Positions 26,081-36,363 of a stretch of 36,363 bases of DNA are shown here, piece after piece. The position numbers and the translations under genes were made by a program. Positions within the stretch are counted from its first letter, which is position 1, and each line of letters opens with the position of its first letter. The notes under the pieces were generated by a model. The model was given only the letters and a program-made list of their open reading frames with translations, was not told the DNA's origin and did no database searches. Source of the DNA: Rhizobiaceae bacterium (GTDB taxonomy: Bacteria > Pseudomonadota > Alphaproteobacteria > Rhizobiales > Rhizobiaceae); the NCBI GenBank assembly GCA_026981655.1, contig JALSIJ010000268.1:1-36363 (forward strand), in the 5' to 3' direction.

Positions 26081-27268
<1,188 letters not shown>

Positions 27269-27274
27269 TTATTA

Positions 27275-28123
27275 TTATTCCACGCATTCCAGCAGCATGG
27301 TGCCTGCGCCGGTGTTTGAAATTGGGATGTGATAATTCTGGTGCAGCGGGGTTACTTTATCGCCAAGCGCACCGCGCATCATCATCCACATGAGAAATTC
27401 CGTTCCCTGCGCGCCGGCCTGACGCACCAGTTCGTGACGGGAGATTTTGGTGAGCTCTTCCGGGTCCGTAACGATTTTTTCCATGCACATCTGGTCAAAT
27501 TCTTTGTTGATAAATCCGGCCCGTTCTCCATCCAGTTGATGGGAAAGCCCACCGGTGCCGAGCACCACAACCTTTATATCGTCCGGGTAGGAACGAATGG
27601 CTTTGCCCAGCGCTTTACCGAAATCTAGCGCCCGCTTCAGGGTTGGGATCGGGTGCTGCACCGTGTTGGCGCTGATGGGAATGGCGCGCGGCATATTCGG
27701 GTTATCGCCCAGACCGGGCCAAAAAAGCTGCATGGGAACGGTAAAGCCATGATCAACCGCAAGTTCCTGACATGAGGTGATGTCAAATTCATCGTCCACC
27801 ATTCCTTCAATTATGTGCCAGGAAAGTTTGGCATCACCTGGAAAAGGCGGGAGTTTTGGCAGCCCCCACCCTTCATCCTCATTGACATATTCATGCGCCG
27901 CGCCAATCGCGAAAGTTGGCATCTGGTCGAGGAAAAAGCCCAACCCATGATCATTATAAATGTTGATGGCCACATCGGGCTTATGCTCATCCAGCCATTC
28001 ACGAATGGGCGGATAGGCATCGAAAAACGGTTTCCAATATGGGTCTTGCATCTGCTCACGGGCAATGGCATTGCCAACGGCTGGAATATGCGAAGTGGTC
28101 AACCCTCCAATAATTTTGGCCAT
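27275..28123 (-). CDS. ligB: Protocatechuate 4,5-dioxygenase beta subunit
   Basis: LigB is the catalytic subunit of the type II extradiol dioxygenase LigAB, which opens protocatechuate between C4 and C5 to give CHMS. Iron ligands His12 (TTSHIP) and His59 (YNDHG) and a Glu in QGTEFLMW are present, as is the catalytic His in GTGGLSHQL. The 282-residue length is usual for the family, and one base separates it from ligA. GGGAG within the end of ligA serves as its ribosome-binding site. Gallate dioxygenase is a related alternative, but separate A and B genes and the neighbouring pobA favour protocatechuate. Confidence 0.94.
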   Translation of the reverse strand: MAKIIGGLTTSHIPAVGNAIAREQMQDPYWKPFFDAYPPIREWLDEHKPDVAINIYNDHGLGFFLDQMPTFAIGAAHEYVNEDEGWGLPKLPPFPGDAKLSWHIIEGMVDDEFDITSCQELAVDHGFTVPMQLFWPGLGDNPNMPRAIPISANTVQHPIPTLKRALDFGKALGKAIRSYPDDIKVVVLGTGGLSHQLDGERAGFINKEFDQMCMEKIVTDPEELTKISRHELVRQAGAQGTEFLMWMMMRGALGDKVTPLHQNYHIPISNTGAGTMLLECVE

Positions 28124-28124
28124 A

Positions 28125-28490
28125 TCAATCTCCCGCCCTTAGCAGTTTTTCCTTGAATTCCTTGACACTCATACCGGTTTGTTGAGCGCCAATATCCTGC
28201 ATGTTCATTTTGTAAATGCCGGCAAATTTGGCGAGATAGTAAATATTACCGCCGGCGGCAATCATCTCCAGCACATTCTTGTTTCGGCAGGCCTGTTTTT
28301 GCTCATCATTCAGTTTAAACTTGTCAAAATAGGCTTCCGGGTCTGCCAGATACGCCTCACGGGCTTCGGCTGCGTTAAACGAATAACACATCTTGTTCAG
28401 CGCATAGCCCTTCATCGCCATCTCACCATCGAAAAAAGTTGTCCCTTCAATAGGGGTATGGTGGTCAAATTCAGATATTTCCATCGTCAT
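28125..28490 (-). CDS. ligA: Protocatechuate 4,5-dioxygenase alpha subunit
   Basis: This 121-residue all-helical protein matches LigA, the small subunit that caps the LigB active site. Characteristic segments are GYALNKMCYSFNAAEAREAYLADP (start of the domain), LNDEQKQACRNKNVLEMIAAGGNIYYLAKFAG and the terminal SVKEFKEKLL. Its ATG overlaps the ligI stop (ATGA) and its own stop is one base before ligB, so the two subunits should be made in step. Confidence 0.93.
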   Translation of the reverse strand: MTMEISEFDHHTPIEGTTFFDGEMAMKGYALNKMCYSFNAAEAREAYLADPEAYFDKFKLNDEQKQACRNKNVLEMIAAGGNIYYLAKFAGIYKMNMQDIGAQQTGMSVKEFKEKLLRAGD

Positions 28491-29410
28491 TTCCCTTCTA
28501 TAATTATTTCAGGCCAATACAGCCGCATGGGGTTATCGACCAATAATGCCTGTTGCAATTGCGCCGTTGGGGCGATTTGCGGTATTAGGTCGACCAGTTC
28601 ACCATCATCCGGCATATGCGACTTCATATTCGGGTGCGGCCAGTCAGTGCCCCATAATACCCTGTTTGGAAAACGCTCAACCAGCAGATTCGAAAAGGGT
28701 ATCACATCGCCATAGGGCGGGCCGCCATTGGAAAGTCGTTCCGGGCACGAAACTTTCGTCCAGATATTTTCGTTCTCATCTATCAGGCGAACAAAGCGTT
28801 GAAAATCCACGTCACTCAATGATTTGGAAACGTCCGGCCGCCCCATATGATCTACCACCACAATGGTAGGTAATTGCTGCAAAAACGGGATCAGTTCTTC
28901 AAGGTCTGCTGCCTCAAAATACACAACGATATGCCAGCCAAGCCGGGCAATTCGTTCGGCAATATCGAGAAAAACCTGTTTTGGTGTAGCATCGACCAGC
29001 CGTTTGACAAAGTTAAAGCGGACGGCACGCACGCCAGCATCATGCATTTGGCTTAATTCATCATCGCTAATATCGGGTGCGATGACCGCGACCCCACGCG
29101 CCAGACCTTCGCTGCTTATAAGCGCATCAATCAGCGCATCATTATTGCGCCCGTGACAGGATGCCTGAACAATGACATTGCGGGAAAAACCAAGATGGTC
29201 GCGGAGAGCAAAAAGTTGGTCTTTAGAGGCATCGCAGGGGGTATATTTTCGTTGTGGTGCAAAGGGAAATTTATTTGCCGGACCAAACACATGGCAATGG
29301 GCATCAACGGCGCCAACCGGTGGTTTAAAGGCAGGTTTTTGTGGATTTGGATGAAACGGCATCCAATCCACATCCATGATCTGAATTTCATCTTCAGAAA
29401 TTTCTGACAT
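28487..29410 (-). CDS. ligI: 2-Pyrone-4,6-dicarboxylate hydrolase
   Basis: LigI opens the lactone 2-pyrone-4,6-dicarboxylate to oxalomesaconate. The 307-residue amidohydrolase-superfamily protein has GAVDAHCHVFGPA near residue 35, HIVVYFEAADLEEL and VVVDHMGRPD in the middle, and WGTDWPHPN with the catalytic Asp near residue 250. The metal-independent LigI pattern is preserved. The start overlaps the ligU stop by one base (TGATG). This step needs PDC made by LigC, whose gene is not in the window. Confidence 0.92.
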   Translation of the reverse strand: MSEISEDEIQIMDVDWMPFHPNPQKPAFKPPVGAVDAHCHVFGPANKFPFAPQRKYTPCDASKDQLFALRDHLGFSRNVIVQASCHGRNNDALIDALISSEGLARGVAVIAPDISDDELSQMHDAGVRAVRFNFVKRLVDATPKQVFLDIAERIARLGWHIVVYFEAADLEELIPFLQQLPTIVVVDHMGRPDVSKSLSDVDFQRFVRLIDENENIWTKVSCPERLSNGGPPYGDVIPFSNLLVERFPNRVLWGTDWPHPNMKSHMPDDGELVDLIPQIAPTAQLQQALLVDNPMRLYWPEIIIEGK

Positions 29411-30465
29411 CAGGCAAATACCTTTCCATCAAACAGTTTTCGTGCGGTCCGCAAAACGGCAGCTTTTGTGACCATATCCGCATCATCCAGTTCCACCAAA
29501 ATAGTGGATTGACCAATTGGGTGTTCAATCTGTAACTGCTTTGGATTGCCTTCTGCGATACGAGCCAATTGATGCGCAGTGGAGCCTTCCAGCAGACAGG
29601 CGGTTGCAACACTGACCGCGCCCAACACCCCAATTGAAGCATGGCAGCGGTGGGGAATGAAAGTGCGGGTCGAGATAGCTCCACCCTTTTGCGGCGCACT
29701 AATCATAGTCATTTTTGGCACGGTTTTTTCAGCCACATTACCAAGCATCATCATTGGGCCAGCCTTAAGTCGAATAACCTCGAGCCGTGATTTCAATTCC
29801 TCATCGGCTTCGAGTTCTTCGCGGGTTTCGCGCCCGGTGATTTCCATATCGGATGCTTTAAGCACAACGCAGGGCATACCATTATCAATCAGCGTTACGG
29901 CCACGCCTTCAATCTCATCGACAACATTGCCGCTGGGCAGTAGCGCGCCGCAGCTTGAACCGGCAATATCACTAAACTCAATCAAGATCGGGCTTGCTGT
30001 ACCCGGCACACCGTCAATTTTTGCTTCACCGAAATAGCTAACTTCGCCCTTCGGGGTTTCCACTGTGGCAATGGCGATCTTACCGGTATTCTGCATGAAA
30101 ATCGTTACCGGGGTTCTGCCATTTTTGGCCTCAACCAACCCGCGCTCAATGGCAAATGGCCCAACACCTGCCAACATATTGCCGCAGTTCTGCGCGTCAC
30201 TTACAGTGGCCTGATCGACCGCAACCTGCAAAAACAGATAATCCACATCAACGCCATCACGTTCTGATTTATTTACGACTGCAACTTTCGAAGTCAGCGG
30301 GTCAGCACCCCCCATACCATCAATCTGGCGCATGTCAGGCGACCCCATCATGGCAAGCAAGAACCGGTCACGCGCGTTGATGTCTTGCGGCAGATCATCC
30401 GCCACAAAGAACCCACCCTTCGAGGTGCCGCCGCGCATCCACATGCAAGCCACCCCCTCATTCAT
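29410..30465 (-). CDS. ligU: 4-Oxalomesaconate tautomerase (PrpF/LigU/GalD family)
   Basis: This 351-residue PrpF-family isomerase matches LigU/GalD, which moves the double bond of 4-oxalomesaconate so that it can be hydrated. Family features are [14 protein letters not shown] at the N-terminus, the [14 protein letters not shown] block, [18 protein letters not shown] with a catalytic Cys/active-site Asn-Cys, and [21 protein letters not shown] near the C-terminus. The ATG overlaps the ligK stop by 8 bp. PrpF aconitate isomerases are the nearest relatives, but the operon identifies the role. Confidence 0.9.
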
Positions 30466-31129
30466 ATTTCAGGCCTTTTTCAGCCAGTCGCTGACGCATT
30501 TTATACATATCAAGGCCCAGCTCGCCGGAAGCCAGTCGCGCCCGCTTTTCTTCTTCCAGCGCCACCCGCGCCTGGGCTTTTTCAAGCACCTCTTTGGCTT
30601 CCTCGCGCCGCACGACGCAAACTCCGTCATCATCAGCCACAATAATATCTCCGGGATTGACAAGCGCGCCGGCACAAACAACTGGAATATTGACCGAACC
30701 AAGCGTTTCTTTCACCGTTCCTTCTGCACTTATGGCTTTGGACCAGACCGGGAATTTCATTTCTTCGAGATCGCGAATATCACGCACACCCGCATCAATA
30801 ATTAGGCCCACTCCACCGCGCGCCTGCATGGAAGTTGCCAGCAAATCGCCAAAATAGCCCGCATCAGAAGGTGAAGTGACTGCCAGCACCAGAATATCAC
30901 CGGCCTGAACTTGTTCTATTGCCACATGAACCATCCAGTTATCACAAGGCGGGGCCAGAATGGTAATGGCCGATGCCGCAAGCGATGTGCCGCGATAAAT
31001 CGGCCGCATGTAAGAGGCCAAAAGCCCCTTGCGTCCTTGCGCCTCGTGCACGGTGGCCACACCGCATTCGCCCAACGCCTTGATGATCCCGAGATCAGCG
31101 CGCTCTATATTTTGAACCACCACGCTCAT
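30458..31129 (-). CDS. ligK: 4-Carboxy-4-hydroxy-2-oxoadipate aldolase
   Basis: LigK is the class II HMG/CHA aldolase that splits CHA into pyruvate and oxaloacetate, the last step of the pathway. The 223-residue protein has the RraA-like fold, with [11 protein letters not shown] near residue 30, [26 protein letters not shown] and [12 protein letters not shown] holding the GX(about 20)RD metal and substrate motif near 120. The C-terminal helix ([18 protein letters not shown]) is typical of LigK. Its ATG overlaps the galB stop by 4 bp. Confidence 0.92.
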
Positions 31130-31860
31130 ATCAATTCGCTCACTGTTTGCGGATAGATGGCCTGAAACCCTTCGGCATATTTAGCCGGTGTGCCGCCCGA
31201 TTGACCACCGGAATTACGGCGGAAATGATTGCCGCGATTTTCAGCCACATTGGTATAAAAATTCCACAAATGCTCTTGGCCCTGCATACACTCAATTGCG
31301 GCGCGCTTCTTTTCCCACACCTCGGAAATGTCCAAAAGCACATTAGGCTTCCAACCCATTTGCTCGGTTTGATGCGGTTCAAACAAATATAGCTGCGGCG
31401 CGCCAAGCACCTTTTCGCCCGGATTATGGCCCCAGGCCTGGGCGATCATCCGACATTCCATCGCCACTTCTGTCGTGTACATATGATCAGTATTATAGGG
31501 ATCATATTGGGAATGGCTCATCATAAATTTTGGCTGTACCGCTCTGATCACGTCGACCAGCTTAAACTTCGCATCACGGTCGAGATTAAGCGGATAATCA
31601 CCAAGATCGAAAAACTGAATGTCATGCACATCCAATGCTTTGGCTGCATTTTCAGCCTCAATGCGGCGTGCCGCCTTGACCTTTTCCAGCGTCATGCCTT
31701 GCTGTTTCCATAATTTGGCACTTTCGCCGCGCTCGCCATAAGAAAGGCAGACCACGGTGACATCATAACCCTTTTTTTGGTGCAGGGCGATTGCACCGCC
31801 CGCCCGCCAAACAAAATCGGCCGCATGTGCACTGATTATCAAAGCTGTTTTATTTGTCAT
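31126..31860 (-). CDS. galB: 4-Oxalomesaconate hydratase, PIG-L type (GalB)
   Basis: This 244-residue LmbE/PIG-L-fold protein matches GalB, a zinc-dependent hydratase that converts 4-oxalomesaconate to CHA. The N-terminal [19 protein letters not shown] carries the metal site in its GalB form, with AHAADF where deacetylases have [12 protein letters not shown] and [10 protein letters not shown] supply further ligands. It is an unrelated alternative to the amidohydrolase-type LigJ. It is the first gene of the operon, 257 bp from the divergent SDH-like genes, with a weak GGGATG-type ribosome site. Confidence 0.9.
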
Positions 31861-32117
31861 AAAATATCATCCCGCGCCAAACCAAAAACGAACTCCAGCT
31901 TATGATGATCATCGCGATGATAACCAGTTCAAAGGCCTCCAACTCAATTCGATTTGGCTATATTATTACTCAAAAATTAACCGGATAGCAGGCGTGCCCT
32001 TCCAGCATATGAAACTATCGCTTACAGGCACCATAAGAAATTGTCTCTTTATGACAGCGCTTCTTTCTATTACAATTTCGTGAGAAATCCTCACATCTAT
32101 TTCAACTGGAGCCAAAC
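31861..32117. promoter_or_regulatory. Divergent promoter region between the lig operon and the SDH-like operon
   Basis: No gene is seen in this 257-bp region. Two overlapping palindromes, GATGATCATC (31904-31913) and ATCGCGAT (31911-31918), lie about 45-60 bp upstream of galB and could be an operator. CTGGAG (32105-32110) is the ribosome-binding site of the first plus-strand gene. No LysR, IclR or GntR regulator gene is adjacent, so the regulator acts from elsewhere. Confidence 0.45.
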
Positions 32118-32858
32118 ATGTCCGCAGACGGGCGCATTTTGAAAATATCCGTCTGGCGCAGCGGTGCCGATGCCGATGCCGGTTCTTTTCAGGACTTTCA
32201 GGTACCCGCCAATCAGCATCAAACGGTTCTCGATGTGGTGAGCTGGATTCAGCAAAACCAGGACCCTTCCCTTTCCTATCGTTTCGCCTGCCGTGTCGGT
32301 ATGTGCGGCTCGTGCGCGATGATGGTCAATGGCAAGCCGCGCTGGACCTGTCGCACCCATGTGAAAAAGGTGCTAGAGGATGGTTTCATGCGCATTGAAC
32401 CGCTGCGCAATCTGCCGGTGATCAAAGATCTTGTCACCGATATGGACCCGTTCTTTGATAAATGGATTGCGGCCGAAGGGGTGTTTCATCCGACCAAAAG
32501 CCGCCACGATGCATTTGCATCAATTAAACCGGACAATCCTGCGCGCATTGAAGCTAACAAAGCGGTCGAGTGCATCAATTGTGCGGTGTGTTTTGCTGCT
32601 TGCGATGTGGTGGCAAACAATGCGGATTATCTCGGGCCGGCGGCGCTGAACCGCACTTGGTCGCTGGTCAATGATGCGCGGGACGGGGGGCAAGCAGCAA
32701 GGCTACAAGCAATTTCGCAATCGGGTGGCTGTCATAATTGCCATTCGCAGCAGGGATGCACAAATTTCTGCCCGAATGAATTAAACCCGACCGCCTCGAT
32801 CGCCGGTTTGAAACGCAAAACAATTGCCACCATGTTCAAACGAGGCCAACATGCTTGA
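32118..32858 (+). CDS. Succinate dehydrogenase/fumarate reductase-like iron-sulfur subunit
   Basis: This 246-residue protein matches the SdhB/FrdB subunit that carries electrons from the flavoprotein to the membrane quinone. The [2Fe-2S] site is CRVGMCGSC and a later C (residues 59-79). The [4Fe-4S] ligands are CINCAVC, and the [3Fe-4S] site uses the next Cys together with the C-terminal CHSQQGCTNFCP. The residue after the fourth Cys of the first group is Asp instead of the usual Pro, and an extra Cys lies three residues before the second group. It leads a four-subunit operon and overlaps the first anchor gene by 8 bp. Whether it is the housekeeping enzyme is discussed in the findings. Confidence 0.9.
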   Translation: MSADGRILKISVWRSGADADAGSFQDFQVPANQHQTVLDVVSWIQQNQDPSLSYRFACRVGMCGSCAMMVNGKPRWTCRTHVKKVLEDGFMRIEPLRNLPVIKDLVTDMDPFFDKWIAAEGVFHPTKSRHDAFASIKPDNPARIEANKAVECINCAVCFAACDVVANNADYLGPAALNRTWSLVNDARDGGQAARLQAISQSGGCHNCHSQQGCTNFCPNELNPTASIAGLKRKTIATMFKRGQHA

Positions 32859-33195
32859 TGCTCGGCTTTATTTGGCGCAACGCCTGACCGCATTGATTAT
32901 GGCGCCGCTGGTGCTCACCCATATCGTGGTGATTATTTATGCGGTGCGCGGCGGGCTTTCCGCATCTGAAATTTTGGCTCGGACGCAGGGCAGCATTTTG
33001 TGGCTCGCATTTTACGGCACATTTGTTGTGGCCGTATCCGTCCATGCGGCAATTGGCTTACGGGTCATCGCGTTCGAAATGTTGAAGATCAAAGGGGCAG
33101 CGCTTTCAATCCTGTTCTGGGGTATTTTGGCCGCGCTGTTATATCTGGGGTTTAGCGCTGTTTATGCGGTAACTTTTGCCGAGGCCGCCACATGA
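32851..33195 (+). CDS. SDH/FRD-like membrane anchor subunit 1
   Basis: This 114-residue protein has three transmembrane helices (about residues 10-33, 50-72 and 85-107). The first has THIVVIIYA and the second HAAIGLRVIAFE, giving candidate haem-b His ligands in the HxxxGxR arrangement found in SDH anchors. The ATG at 32851 overlaps the iron-sulfur gene by 8 bp; an earlier ATG at 32824 would add residues read from the wrong frame of that gene. Together with the next gene it should form the quinone site. Confidence 0.85.
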   Translation: MLDARLYLAQRLTALIMAPLVLTHIVVIIYAVRGGLSASEILARTQGSILWLAFYGTFVVAVSVHAAIGLRVIAFEMLKIKGAALSILFWGILAALLYLGFSAVYAVTFAEAAT

Positions 33196-33533
33196 TCGCG
33201 CCGCATCGAAAACATGCTCTTTGGTTGGCCTATGCACTGCATCGCGCCTCCGGTTTGGCGTTGGCGGTTTTCCTGCCCGTGCATTTCTATGTGCTATCGC
33301 TGGCGTTGACCACCGACGGCAGACTTGATGATTTCCTCATATGGTCAGATCAGCCCTTGGTGAAATTTGCAGAATTCGGATTGATATTTTTGTTGGCAAT
33401 TCATTTCTTCGGCGGATTACGGTTGATGGCACTGGAGTTCCTGCCCTGGTCGCCAAGACAAAAAACCTATGCGGCCTTTGCCTTGGCCGGGTCTTTTTTC
33501 GTCTCCTGCACATTCCTTTTAAGCGCGGCGTGA
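33192..33533 (+). CDS. SDH/FRD-like membrane anchor subunit 2
   Basis: This 113-residue protein also has three membrane helices. The N-terminal ALHRASGLALAVFLPVHF is the SdhC-type HRxSG motif that contributes to the ubiquinone site, and HFFGGLRLMALEF is a second HxxxGxR haem motif. The start overlaps the previous stop (ATGA). The third helix ends the protein. Two anchors with two possible haem His pairs suggest a two-haem or duplicated type, but this cannot be fixed from sequence alone. Confidence 0.85.
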   Translation: MIAPHRKHALWLAYALHRASGLALAVFLPVHFYVLSLALTTDGRLDDFLIWSDQPLVKFAEFGLIFLLAIHFFGGLRLMALEFLPWSPRQKTYAAFALAGSFFVSCTFLLSAA

Positions 33534-33534
33534 G

Positions 33535-35280
33535 ATGAAGAACAATATTGAACGCCATGATACGGATATTTTGATCATCGGCTCAGGTGGCGCCGGGCTG
33601 TTTGCCGCCCTTCATGCCCAACAGGCCGCACCAAACGCAAAAATTACCCTCGCGGTCAAAGGGTTGATCGGCAAATGTGGCTGCACCCGCATGGTGCAGG
33701 GCGGCTATAATGTGGCGCTTGGCAATGGCGATAGTGTCGAGCGTCATTTCATGGATACGATCAATGGTGGCAAATGGTTGCCCAATCAGGATATGGCGTG
33801 GAAGCTCTGCAAAACTGCGGTAGAACGCATTCACGAGTTGGAGAACGAGATCGGCTGCTTCTTCGACCGCAACAATGATGGCACACTGCACCAAAAAGCT
33901 TTTGCCGGACAGACCGCCGACCGCACGGTGCATAAGGGCGATCTTACCGGCATTGAAATCATCAACCGGTTGATGGAACAAGTGCTTTCGCGCGGCATTG
34001 AAAAGCTACAGGAACATCGAGCTATAGGCTTAATCCCGGCGAAGGACGGGTCACGACTTTCCGGCGTGTTGTTCATTGATATGCGTACCGGAAAATTCCG
34101 GCTGGTGCGGGCAAAAAGCGTATTGATGGCAACCGGTGGCGGGCCAACCATGTATAAATACAACACCCCCTCGGGCGATAAAAGCATGGATGGGCTGGCG
34201 ATGGCCTATCGGGCCGGACTTTCCCTGCGCGATATGGAAATGGTGCAATTTCACCCGACCGGATTGTTGGGCGGCGAAGGCACCAAAATGACCGGCACGG
34301 TGCTGGAGGAAGGGTTGCGCGGTGCGGGCGGAGAGCTGCATAACAGCTTTGGCGCGCGCTTCATGTTTGATTATGACGCCAAGGGCGAACGCGCCACCCG
34401 CGATGTGGTGAGCCGCGGAATCTATGCGGAAATGCAGAAAAACAACACTTCGCCGAATGGCGGTGTCTACATTTCCATGAGCCATCTGGGGCCGGAAAAT
34501 GTCGCAGCAAAATTTCCCGGCATGGTGAAGCGCTGCGCAGATAGCGGCTTTGATTTGGCAGCTGGCAAAGTCGAAGTTGTGCCAACCGCGCATTACTTCA
34601 TGGGCGGCGTGATTGTTGATGCGGATACCAGAACCAGGCTTGAAGGACTATTTGTTGCCGGTGAAGATGCGGGCGGTGCGCACGGCTCCAACCGGCTTGG
34701 TGGCAACGGGGTTGCCAATTCCACCGTCTATGGCGGCGTGGCGGGCGATGTGATGGGTGCCGAATTCAACCCGACAGGTGCGCATTGCGAGCCGGATGAA
34801 CATATTTTAACCGCAGAAATCGACCGGGCGTTGCACCCTCTATCGCAAAAGCCCGGAAATTTTCATTTGCTGCGAACCGAACTACAAGAAATTATGTGGG
34901 ATGATGTGGGGATTATCCGTTCGAAAACCGGCCTTGAGCGCGGTATAAAAAGGATTGCTGAAATCAGTGGTGAACTGATGCAGATCGGTGTTGCCGGTGA
35001 CAATCTGGCCTTCAATCTCACCTGGCATGATTGGCTTAATCTGCGCAGTCTTTGCGATGTGTCCGAGCTGATTGCCAAATCGGCCCTGATGCGCGAGAAT
35101 TCTCGCGGTGCGCATTATCGCGATGACTTTCCTGAAAGCGGTGCGATGGAAGATTCTTACTTTACCGTGGCGCACAAGATAGGCGGCAATATTGATGTGG
35201 CACGCGAAGACGTTCAATTCAGCATCGTTCGGCCAGGTGAAACAATTTTGCGCGAAGGCGAGCCGGCAACATTGGTGTGA
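33535..35280 (+). CDS. SDH/FRD-like flavoprotein subunit, lacking the covalent-FAD histidine
   Basis: This 581-residue protein matches the SdhA/FrdA family, which interconverts succinate and fumarate. The FAD motif is ILIIGSGGAGLFAALHA (residues 12-28). Dicarboxylate active-site motifs are kept: QFHPTG (near 235), EEGLRGAGGE, RDVVSRGIY with the proton-relay Arg, PTAHYFMGG and GSNRLGGN. The segment that normally reads S-H-T...AQGG is GCTRMVQGG here, so Cys50 occupies the position of the His that binds FAD covalently. L-aspartate oxidases also lack that His, but the B, C and D subunits argue against that role. One base separates it from the preceding anchor gene. Confidence 0.88.
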   Translation: MKNNIERHDTDILIIGSGGAGLFAALHAQQAAPNAKITLAVKGLIGKCGCTRMVQGGYNVALGNGDSVERHFMDTINGGKWLPNQDMAWKLCKTAVERIHELENEIGCFFDRNNDGTLHQKAFAGQTADRTVHKGDLTGIEIINRLMEQVLSRGIEKLQEHRAIGLIPAKDGSRLSGVLFIDMRTGKFRLVRAKSVLMATGGGPTMYKYNTPSGDKSMDGLAMAYRAGLSLRDMEMVQFHPTGLLGGEGTKMTGTVLEEGLRGAGGELHNSFGARFMFDYDAKGERATRDVVSRGIYAEMQKNNTSPNGGVYISMSHLGPENVAAKFPGMVKRCADSGFDLAAGKVEVVPTAHYFMGGVIVDADTRTRLEGLFVAGEDAGGAHGSNRLGGNGVANSTVYGGVAGDVMGAEFNPTGAHCEPDEHILTAEIDRALHPLSQKPGNFHLLRTELQEIMWDDVGIIRSKTGLERGIKRIAEISGELMQIGVAGDNLAFNLTWHDWLNLRSLCDVSELIAKSALMRENSRGAHYRDDFPESGAMEDSYFTVAHKIGGNIDVAREDVQFSIVRPGETILREGEPATLV

Positions 35281-35291
35281 GGTAAAATCAG

Positions 35292-36263
35292 ATGATCTCA
35301 ATTGACAAAATTCAACAAACTGCCGAAGTCCTGATGGACAAGGCGGCGATCGAAATTCCGCAGGATTATCTGGACGGGTTGAAATCTGCCGCCAAAGTGG
35401 AGGATGGCGATCTCTCCGCCTTTGTGTTGCAGGCGATGCTGGAAAATTACCAAGCCGCCAAGGAAGACCGCCGCGCCATGTGTGGCGATACCGGTACGCC
35501 GCGCTGGTATGTTAAAATGGGCAATGAGGCGCAGATTGAAGGCGGGCCAGTGGCACTTGAAGCAGCCCTTCGGCGCGCCACCGCCAATGCCACAAACGGG
35601 GTGCCGTTGCGCCCGAACCGGGTGCATCCGCTTTGGCGCACCGATCACAATAATAATGTTGGCATCGGCGCGCCAGAAATTGAATATGGCTATGAGCCGC
35701 AAGGCGAATGGATTGATCTGATTACCGTGCATAAGGGCGGGCTATTCGGTACTGATTATAGGATGCTTTTCCCCTCCGACGGGATTGAAGGTATAAAACG
35801 GTTTTACCTCGATTGCCTTGTGGCCTTTGGCAAACGCGGCCTTGCCTGCCAACCGGCAATCATCGGTATCGGGCTTGGTGGCTGCAAGGATACCTGCATG
35901 GTGCTGGGCAAACGCGCCGCCTGCCTGCGCATTGTCGGCGACCGTAATCCGGACCCCAAAATTGCTGAACTTGAGGACGAATTTAAAGAGCTTGGCAATT
36001 CCATCGGCATGGGCGCAATGGGTTTTATCGGCAAATCCATGGTTATCGACTGCAATATTGAGGTTGGCTATTGCCACACCGGCGGCATGCAAATGTCGGT
36101 ACACGCCTTTTGCCTCTCATCCAGACGCGCCGTTGCGCGCATTCACGCCGATGGGCGGGTGGAATACCGAACCGACCCTGACTGGTTTACTGATTATCAA
36201 CGCCGGGAGACAGTGGAATGGGAAATTCCCCAGGACAAAAACAACCACGTAAAATCCGCCTAA
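35292..36263 (+). CDS. Class I fumarate hydratase / L-tartrate dehydratase-type alpha subunit
   Basis: This 323-residue protein matches the alpha subunit of two-part iron-sulfur hydro-lyases (TtdA, or the N-terminal half of class I fumarase). Cysteines for the catalytic [4Fe-4S] cluster lie in MCGDTGTPRW (Cys64), GIGLGGCKDTC (near 195) and GYCHTGGMQMS (near 260). These enzymes hydrate fumarate, mesaconate or other trans-unsaturated diacids, or dehydrate tartrate; sequence does not discriminate. It lies 11 bp after the SDH-like flavoprotein gene in the same operon, placing oxidation and hydration steps together. The beta subunit gene overlaps its last 46 bp. Confidence 0.9.
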   Translation: MISIDKIQQTAEVLMDKAAIEIPQDYLDGLKSAAKVEDGDLSAFVLQAMLENYQAAKEDRRAMCGDTGTPRWYVKMGNEAQIEGGPVALEAALRRATANATNGVPLRPNRVHPLWRTDHNNNVGIGAPEIEYGYEPQGEWIDLITVHKGGLFGTDYRMLFPSDGIEGIKRFYLDCLVAFGKRGLACQPAIIGIGLGGCKDTCMVLGKRAACLRIVGDRNPDPKIAELEDEFKELGNSIGMGAMGFIGKSMVIDCNIEVGYCHTGGMQMSVHAFCLSSRRAVARIHADGRVEYRTDPDWFTDYQRRETVEWEIPQDKNNHVKSA

Positions 36264-36363
36264 GCACTACGCCAACCCCGCAGGCATTAGCCGAATTGCG
36301 GTTGGGTGACATTGTCTATCTGGACGGGCTGATCTACACGGCCCGCGAAGGTGTTTATATGCG
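36218..36363 (+). CDS. Class I fumarate hydratase / L-tartrate dehydratase-type beta subunit, partial
   Basis: Only the first 48 codons are in the window. The ATG at 36218 has GGGAGA at 36205-36210 as a ribosome-binding site. The sequence KIRLSTTPTP, then ELRLGDIVYLDG and IYTAREGVYM, is the usual N-terminus of the beta subunit (TtdB, or the C-terminal half of class I fumarase). The frame overlaps the alpha subunit gene by 46 bp and no later in-frame start would keep the conserved beginning. The gene continues beyond the right edge. Confidence 0.85.
   Translation, partial: MGNSPGQKQPRKIRLSTTPTPQALAELRLGDIVYLDGLIYTAREGVYM

Follow-up and report, generated by a model that had tools for sequence, protein, structure and literature searches.

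A succinate dehydrogenase-like cassette joined to a hydro-lyase

The window analyzed here is a complete contig (G000:C268; 36,363 bases) from a Rhizobiaceae bacterium with a source genome of 3.43 Mb, the assembly of which is 96% complete. Its last 4 kb carry a cassette of six plus-strand genes encoding, in this order, an SdhB-like iron-sulfur subunit, two membrane anchors, a flavoprotein, and the alpha and beta subunits of a class I hydro-lyase. The same genes, strand and order had been given by a first-pass annotation made from the letters alone, and open reading frames (ORFs), sequence and profile searches confirm them. The cassette is a real and widespread paralog of succinate dehydrogenase (SDH) combined with a hydratase and is not the housekeeping enzyme, and the context in relatives gives good support to a function in sulfonate catabolism. 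The features of the locus are as follows.

31861..32117, no strand: intergenic region of 257 bp between a divergent operon and the cassette, with coordinates from ORFs and sequence; probable promoter region
32118..32858, plus strand: SdhB-like iron-sulfur subunit (PF13085, 108 bits; TIGR00384, 200.6 bits, above the cut-off of 88)
32851..33195, plus strand: membrane anchor 1, SdhD-like (PF01127, 35.3 bits, above cut-off; TIGR02968, 30.4 bits, under the cut-off of 41.8)
33192..33533, plus strand: membrane anchor 2, SdhC-like, with an HRxSG motif (PF01127, 41.7 bits, above cut-off; TIGR02970, 47.2 bits, under the cut-off of 52.3)
33535..35280, plus strand: flavoprotein of 581 residues, proposed catalytic subunit of a 3-sulfopropanoate dehydrogenase (PF00890, 240.5 bits; PF02910, 99.3 bits)
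33682..33684, plus strand: codon of Cys50, at the position of the covalent-FAD (flavin adenine dinucleotide) histidine in SdhA
34285..34287, plus strand: codon of Lys251, within a six-residue active-site insertion
34306..34308, plus strand: codon of Glu258, at the position of SdhA Thr254
35292..36263, plus strand: class I hydro-lyase alpha subunit, type 1 (CGDTG, not CQDTG), proposed 3-sulfoacrylate hydratase (PF05681, 216.9 bits; TIGR00722, 205.4 bits, above the cut-off of 100.65)
36218..36363, plus strand: class I hydro-lyase beta subunit, 5' end only (ATG at 36218; the contig end cuts the gene after 48 codons)

The genes are tightly packed. If anchor 1 starts at the ATG at 32851 it overlaps the SdhB-like gene by 8 bp; the two anchors overlap by 4 bp, gaps of 1 and 11 bp precede the flavoprotein and the alpha gene, respectively, and the beta gene overlaps the alpha gene by 46 bp. 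The SdhB-like subunit contains, by eye, the cysteine sets for 2Fe-2S, 4Fe-4S, and 3Fe-4S clusters, and scores 201 bits with the SdhB model NF004616, under its cut-off of 228. Each anchor has histidines at likely helix positions (window 32851-33533) that are candidate haem ligands and may serve two haems. A complete beta gene is visible in a locus of the same genus (L122). In another same-genus locus (L121, position 1) the contig end falls inside the alpha gene, and because the window contig also breaks in the fumA-fumB stretch (at 36363), the break may be an assembly limit.

Had this been the only sdh in the genome, or had its flavoprotein fallen within housekeeping SdhA, the paralogy asserted by the first-pass annotation would not hold; neither is the case. 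The same genome has a canonical sdhC-sdhD-sdhA-sdhB set at C22, with an SdhA bearing the usual SHT covalent-FAD motif, and a second, single-chain class I fumarase at C219 that is 65% identical to Escherichia coli FumA. The cassette flavoprotein is 36% identical to its own genome's housekeeping SdhA and misses both SdhA models (TIGR01812, 412.4 bits with a cut-off of 567.3; TIGR01816, 327.2 bits with a cut-off of 727.35). In a tree of 29 rows, it formed a clade of its own with 13 relatives (support 100/100), apart from a clade of SdhA and FrdA (99/94); NadB, FrdA, and E. coli SdhA stood on long branches, for which the tree program gave a warning. Omitted from this tree were the very long REL_L026, REL_L024, which failed a motif filter, and L032, L034, L035, L038, and L039, as well as L052 and L079 among the cassette rows; three other rows of the cassette that were over-long were trimmed. 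In a tree retaining REL_L026 and these three over-long rows, the support for the cassette clade was only 54/81.

The cassette shares with housekeeping SdhCDAB the four-subunit layout, the Fe-S cysteine sets, four active-site residues, and SDH-type anchors, but differs in its order (B-anchor-anchor-A), in a cysteine for the FAD-binding histidine, in a glutamate for Thr254, in a six-residue insertion, and in its separate clade. Among NCBIfam models, the best match of the flavoprotein is TfrA of the thiol:fumarate reductase of methanogens (503 bits), although this is under the cut-off of 718, the SdhB-like subunit scores only 142.8 with the TfrB model (cut-off 385), and the cassette has membrane anchors; this comparison is by models only. 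The hydro-lyase resembles TtdAB and FumA as a two-subunit class I enzyme in which the three cluster cysteines align. Its alpha subunit is nonetheless only 28.9% identical to TtdA and 24.3% to E. coli FumA, and falls short of the equivalog models NF004885 (194 bits, cut-off 276) and NF006084 (146.2 bits, cut-off 365). One genome of the same family (G004) has two cassette copies (L125 and L126), with flavoproteins 65% and 64% identical to that of the window.

The active site of the flavoprotein

An alignment of 35 sequences, comprising the window and 34 loci from the set of relatives described below, was compared with E. coli SdhA. The FAD segment reads KCGCTRMVQGG, in which Cys50 stands at the position of SdhA His45 and is conserved in all 35 sequences, so that the atypical FAD segment described at first pass is real and the histidine for covalent FAD is absent. 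The cysteine at this position could possibly carry a cysteinyl FAD. Of the residues that we take to form the dicarboxylate site of SdhA (His-242, Thr-254, Arg-286, His-354, and Arg-399), the cassette keeps four, as His240, Arg289, His353, and Arg387, all invariant in 35/35. The fifth, Thr254, is replaced by Glu258 in every sequence. Six residues are inserted before Glu258, and position 251 in this stretch is Arg or Lys in 34/35 (Lys251 in the window).

In the SDH family, Thr254 lies at one carboxylate of succinate and Arg399 and His354 at the other. Given the change of Thr254 to glutamate together with the Lys/Arg insertion, set against four invariant catalytic residues, one end of the substrate site appears to have been kept and the other remade, which would suit a substrate bearing one carboxylate and, as its other acidic group, one of a different kind. 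The AlphaFold model of the cassette flavoprotein had a mean predicted local distance difference test (pLDDT) score of 75.6, with values below 50 at residues 49-62 and 239-256, which include the FAD cysteine and the insertion, and no geometry was drawn from it.

Gene neighborhood in relatives and two types of hydratase

To describe the surroundings of the cassette, 80 loci (L041-L120) were kept from at least 589 relatives; 49 of them have at least 7 kb on both sides and are termed full-flank loci, the other 31 being dropped from these counts for short flanks. SdhB, the anchors, FumA, and FumB are present in all 49. A TauE/SafE exporter occurs in 36/49 compared with an expected 0.026 per locus (44/80 when all loci are counted), the background being 329 copies in 248 Mb from 61 relatives. 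We read this excess as large but not as a probability, because the loci share ancestry and the background was taken from a different set of genomes. LysR (36/49), TctC (23/49), and TctA (19/49) recur as well, and less often a SoxC/Sor-like sulfite dehydrogenase (6/49), YeiH (3/49), and SuyAB (1/49, in L099). A TauE, YeiH, SuyAB, or SoxC/Sor gene is found in 38 of the 49. The names SuyA, SuyB, and SlcC as used here stem from gene layout and general knowledge of the families: the SuyB-like protein matches only a galactarate dehydratase model, far under its cut-off, and the SlcD-like protein scores 203.8 bits with NF040650 (cut-off 500).

Plasmid-borne cassettes, of which we examined seven of 15 matches (one unannotated), have similar company. 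The cassette is accompanied by TauE, LysR, and TctABC on a Sulfitobacter THAF37 plasmid, and by YeiH, NIPSNAP, TauE, and a tripartite ATP-independent periplasmic (TRAP) transporter on the NT-25 plasmid. Adjoining it in NT-25 are homologues of sulfolactaldehyde reductase (324.3 bits, cut-off 348) and succinate-semialdehyde dehydrogenase, which could form the supply side of a pathway. The Methylobacterium nodulans plasmid has soxC, a second molybdopterin oxidoreductase with cytochrome c, and YeiH-type and TauE genes; that of Pseudomonas sp. MPC6 has TctABC, TauE, YeiH, a sulfite oxidase with cytochrome c, and a methylmalonate-semialdehyde dehydrogenase (MMSDH)-type gene overlapping fumB. The Methylobacterium radiotolerans plasmid carries TauE, a SuyAB-like pair of UxaA-family genes, and two dehydrogenases, and the Paracoccus versutus plasmid carries YeiH, NIPSNAP, TauE, and sulfolactate-dehydrogenase-like genes. 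In the Roseovarius nubinhibens locus (L064), the cassette directly follows TctB and TctA.

The most complete arrangements were found in three genera from two families (L148 in G096, L149 in G169, and L150 in G389), where the flavoprotein, SdhB, and the anchors are grouped in a single cluster with a class I hydratase, TauE, an ATP-binding cassette (ABC) importer, SuyA-like and SuyB-like genes resembling those of sulfolactate sulfo-lyase, and two sulfolactate-dehydrogenase-like genes; L135 has much of this set. Each cluster may be read as a pathway of uptake, oxidation, hydration, sulfolactate racemization, cleavage to pyruvate and sulfite, and export. The importer is of the taurine/nitrate/aliphatic-sulfonate type by its best models, all under cut-off (L099 ATPase), and does not by itself demonstrate that sulfonates are taken up.

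The alpha subunits of L135 and L150 are only 31.8 and 33.8% identical to that of the window, which defines two hydratase types. L148 was assigned to its type from a 78% match to the L150 query; for L149, the assignment came from the beta subunit, at 69% to L135, and from the alpha subunit, at 35% to NT-25. At the site that reads CQDTG in TtdA, E. coli FumA, and the L135 type, the window type has CGDTG; it accounts for 76 of the 80 loci, with no hydratase visible in the other 4.

Co-occurrence was examined in 387 genomes of the window's class, Alphaproteobacteria, of which 36 carry the cassette flavoprotein and 351 do not. Among the 36, 24 have the window-type hydratase (the window counted), 8 the other type, and 4 none in the stretch examined. 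An orthologue of SuyB is present in 21/36 cassette genomes and in 15/351 others; by hydratase type, it is found in 8/8 genomes with the second type, 11/24 with the window type, and 2/4 of the remainder. Xsc is present in 14/24 window-type genomes compared with 34/351 without the cassette. It is also present in the window's own genome (967.6 bits), where a DsrC/TusE-like gene, xsc, and a three-subunit oxidoreductase lie in a row (L151:8804-16268). The oxidoreductase looks to us like a cytoplasmic, sulfite-oxidizing SoeABC-like enzyme, and its large subunit matches only the thiosulfate reductase model PhsA (180 bits, cut-off 694).

Other genes recur around the cassette. A class III coenzyme A (CoA)-transferase is found in 9/80 loci, between fumA and fumB where inspected (L049:11860-13035, L062:11639-12850, and L064:11168-12880), and 12/49 full-flank loci have, close to the cassette, a thiamine pyrophosphate (TPP) enzyme intermediate between the acetolactate synthase and 2-hydroxyacyl-CoA lyase families (L131:5407-7008, L135:11648-13273, and L049:14797-16362). 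A route combining the two, with a sulfolactyl-CoA lyase, was considered but is kept only as a lead, since just 2/49 loci have both. A nitroreductase-family gene is likewise near the cassette in 12/49 full-flank loci, often divergent from sdhB (L131:7005-7832 and similar).

Proposed pathway, its alternatives and the neighboring operon

Since sulfite and sulfonate genes recur beside the cassette in relatives, its substrate is likely to be a succinate analogue that bears a sulfonate, and because a dehydrogenation and a hydration that yield sulfolactate start from 3-sulfopropanoate, this compound is the most likely one. We consider it probable that the cassette is a catabolic module of this kind, with the substrate, the direction, and the site of water addition being inferred. 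The SdhA-like flavoprotein would take two hydrogens from 3-sulfopropanoate to give 3-sulfoacrylate, and the electrons would travel through SdhB and the two anchors to the quinone pool, just as in the oxidation of succinate by succinate dehydrogenase. Hydration of the 3-sulfoacrylate double bond by the class I hydro-lyase would follow, most likely giving 3-sulfolactate, the analogue of malate. The enzymes that desulfonate sulfolactate (SuyAB, or a sulfopyruvate/Xsc route) would be encoded at other sites in the genome or, in some relatives, adjacent to the cassette, and the sulfite would be exported through TauE/SafE or oxidized. The idea of oxidation followed by hydration, put forward at first pass, holds as the best reading.

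This chemistry has a precedent. R. nubinhibens ISM uses homotaurine via 3-sulfopropionate, sulfoacrylate, and sulfolactate according to a Konstanz thesis (Jutta Mayer) cited in PMC11489063, and the organism carries the cassette, although the citing passage names no genes. According to the same article, bacterial degradation of 3-hydroxypropanesulfonate and 3-sulfopropionate was otherwise previously unreported, homotaurine gives rise to 3-sulfopropanoate, as does sulfoquinovose in Enterococcus gilvus, and Bilophila wadsworthia can take it as an electron acceptor. A TauE protein is there called a probable 3-sulfopropionate exporter, so that TauE near the cassette need not mean sulfite. The sulfolactate module of Paracoccus wurundjeri (SlcC/ComC-SuyAB with TauE; PMC12421959) has genes similar to those that cluster with the complex in L148-L150 and L135, but it starts from sulfolactate, and an SDH-like complex is not described in it in the sections consulted. 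In the same source, an induced "cluster 3" of P. wurundjeri contains fumarate and tartrate genes and a TauE homologue. By analogy with the gene order in P. versutus, we suspect that this may be the present cassette; sulfofucose is not routed via 3-sulfopropanoate in the portions of PMC12421959 consulted, and the induction, if the two are the same, would be loose or point to another role.

Our literature searches, which left subscription journals and theses mostly outside their coverage, found no paper assigning genes to the breakdown of 3-sulfopropanoate. The cassette, carried by 36/387 of the sampled class genomes, provides candidate genes for this route and makes it testable. On plasmids, it is annotated as FAD-binding protein, fumarate reductase, succinate dehydrogenase, or fumarate hydratase. 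If the proposal is true, a step of central metabolism has been copied and re-aimed from carboxylates to sulfonates, and annotations otherwise taken for Krebs-cycle capacity would be corrected.

Several observations weigh against 3-sulfopropanoate breakdown through sulfolactate. The SuyAB-linked clusters use the other hydratase, so that the product of the window type need not be the same; among the 80 loci, L099 alone has SuyAB close by and no locus has Xsc there, and 11/49 full-flank loci have no TauE, YeiH, SuyAB, or SoxC/Sor gene. No sulfite gene stands beside the cassette in the window itself, where the contig ends, and the same-genus locus L122 continues into what appears by eye to be a sugar-type ABC transporter. 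A SuyB orthologue is missing from the genome of the window, the best match being 31% identical, as are an Ldh_2 protein and a ComE match above cut-off. Neither SuyB nor Xsc is present in 7/36 cassette genomes; SuyB was found in 7/12 named cassette genomes tried, being absent from R. nubinhibens and 4 more, and its excess in the nearer sample of 61 relatives is weak (6/12 with the cassette, 10/49 without). LigK, taken as an unrelated control, is also enriched (12/36 compared with 20/351, and 10/24 in window-type genomes), from which it follows that the genome-level co-occurrence is partly versatility and that the SuyB excess of window-type genomes may be general versatility. Finally, in SDH and fumarate reductase (FRD) mutants, loss of the covalent histidine hinders oxidation of succinate-like substrates, and by that behavior Cys50 would be a handicap to the reaction proposed.

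The window-type hydratase may have a different product. Were it to place water on the sulfonate-bearing carbon of the same substrate, a bisulfite adduct would form and fall apart to malonate semialdehyde and sulfite, making the hydratase itself the desulfonating enzyme. We regard this as possible but doubtful. In Pseudomonas sp. MPC6, the end of fumB shares a single base with the gene of a CoA-acylating MMSDH (TIGR01722, 695.3 bits, cut-off 448.5), and Cupriavidus sp. P-10 has a homologue on the opposite strand, some 3 kb away from sdhB; yet an MmsA homologue of at least 45% identity is local in 0/49 full-flank loci (4/49 at a looser threshold). The CGDTG motif, the lower frequency of SuyB in window-type genomes than in those of the other type, and the contrast between the frequent TauE and the single local SuyAB in 80 loci, as if the cassette made sulfite, all favor direct release. 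On the other side, R. nubinhibens, which is cited in PMC11489063 as passing through sulfolactate, has a window-type hydratase (90% identical to that of the window). Since it is the only organism with a reported route, between sulfolactate and direct sulfite release we lean to sulfolactate. It is also conceivable, although rather unlikely, that both outcomes occur, with one SDH-like complex, binding FAD through Cys50, serving a sulfonate copy of the succinate-fumarate-malate sequence and two hydratases following it, of which the type with the canonical motif would supply sulfolactate to SuyAB and the CGDTG type would act as a desulfonase, adding water to the sulfonated carbon and splitting off sulfite.

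Other substrates explain less of the evidence. 2-Sulfosuccinate, imported or formed from sulfite and fumarate, would be converted by oxidation and hydration to oxaloacetate and sulfite, in a catabolic or metabolite-repair unit. No further enzyme would be needed, which suits loci with little beyond the cassette, TauE, LysR, and a tricarboxylate-type transporter, but sulfosuccinate keeps both carboxylates while one end of the dicarboxylate site is altered. It leaves the SuyAB-like, sulfolactate-dehydrogenase-like, and aldehyde-dehydrogenase neighbors unexplained, a literature search on sulfofumarate and on sulfosuccinate dehydrogenase or degradation gave no biological paper, and we think it improbable. 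Slightly less probable still is a non-sulfonated substituted succinate, such as methylsuccinate oxidized to mesaconate and hydrated to citramalate, as the first-pass annotation had suggested. Little speaks for it beyond family resemblance and the CoA-transferase found in 9/80 loci, which in some stands between fumA and fumB and is weakly like succinyl-CoA:mesaconate CoA-transferase (189.2 bits, cut-off 700), whereas the recurrent sulfite exporters, sulfite oxidases, SuyAB-like genes, and importers go unexplained. Citramalyl-CoA lyase was not among the 13 recurrent neighbor clusters annotated, and no search aimed at enzymes of the methylsuccinate pathway was made. The module could also run in reverse, the hydro-lyase dehydrating sulfolactate and the complex reducing sulfoacrylate with quinol, in the manner of fumarate respiration. 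The missing covalent-FAD histidine, a trait of mainly reductase enzymes, and the match to TfrA would agree with this; aerobic lineages, Roseovarius and Marivita among them, nevertheless carry the cassette beside uptake systems and sulfite exporters, and we consider reversal very unlikely.

In the window, the cassette has one further neighbor, from which the first-pass annotation drew one of its suggested substrates.

26081-31860, minus strand: protocatechuate 4,5-cleavage operon, divergent from the cassette

Matches to LigK (TIGR02798) and 4-oxalomesaconate tautomerase (NF033377) exceed their cut-offs, bearing out the first-pass identification of the divergent operon. Its other genes presumably encode a PobA-like hydroxylase, LigAB-like and LigI-like proteins, and a PIG-L family protein that is probably a GalB-type hydratase. 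The accompanying suggestion of a tricarboxylate related to the lig intermediates is not supported, and a lig-linked substrate was rejected, as close linkage is confined to the window's genus: the lig genes of the window have no clustered counterpart in the 80 loci, and of the 12/36 cassette genomes with LigK, leaving aside that of the window, 10 have it on a separate contig from the cassette and one has it at a distance of about 745 kb. A lig operon beside the cassette was seen again in L121, from a second genome of the genus.

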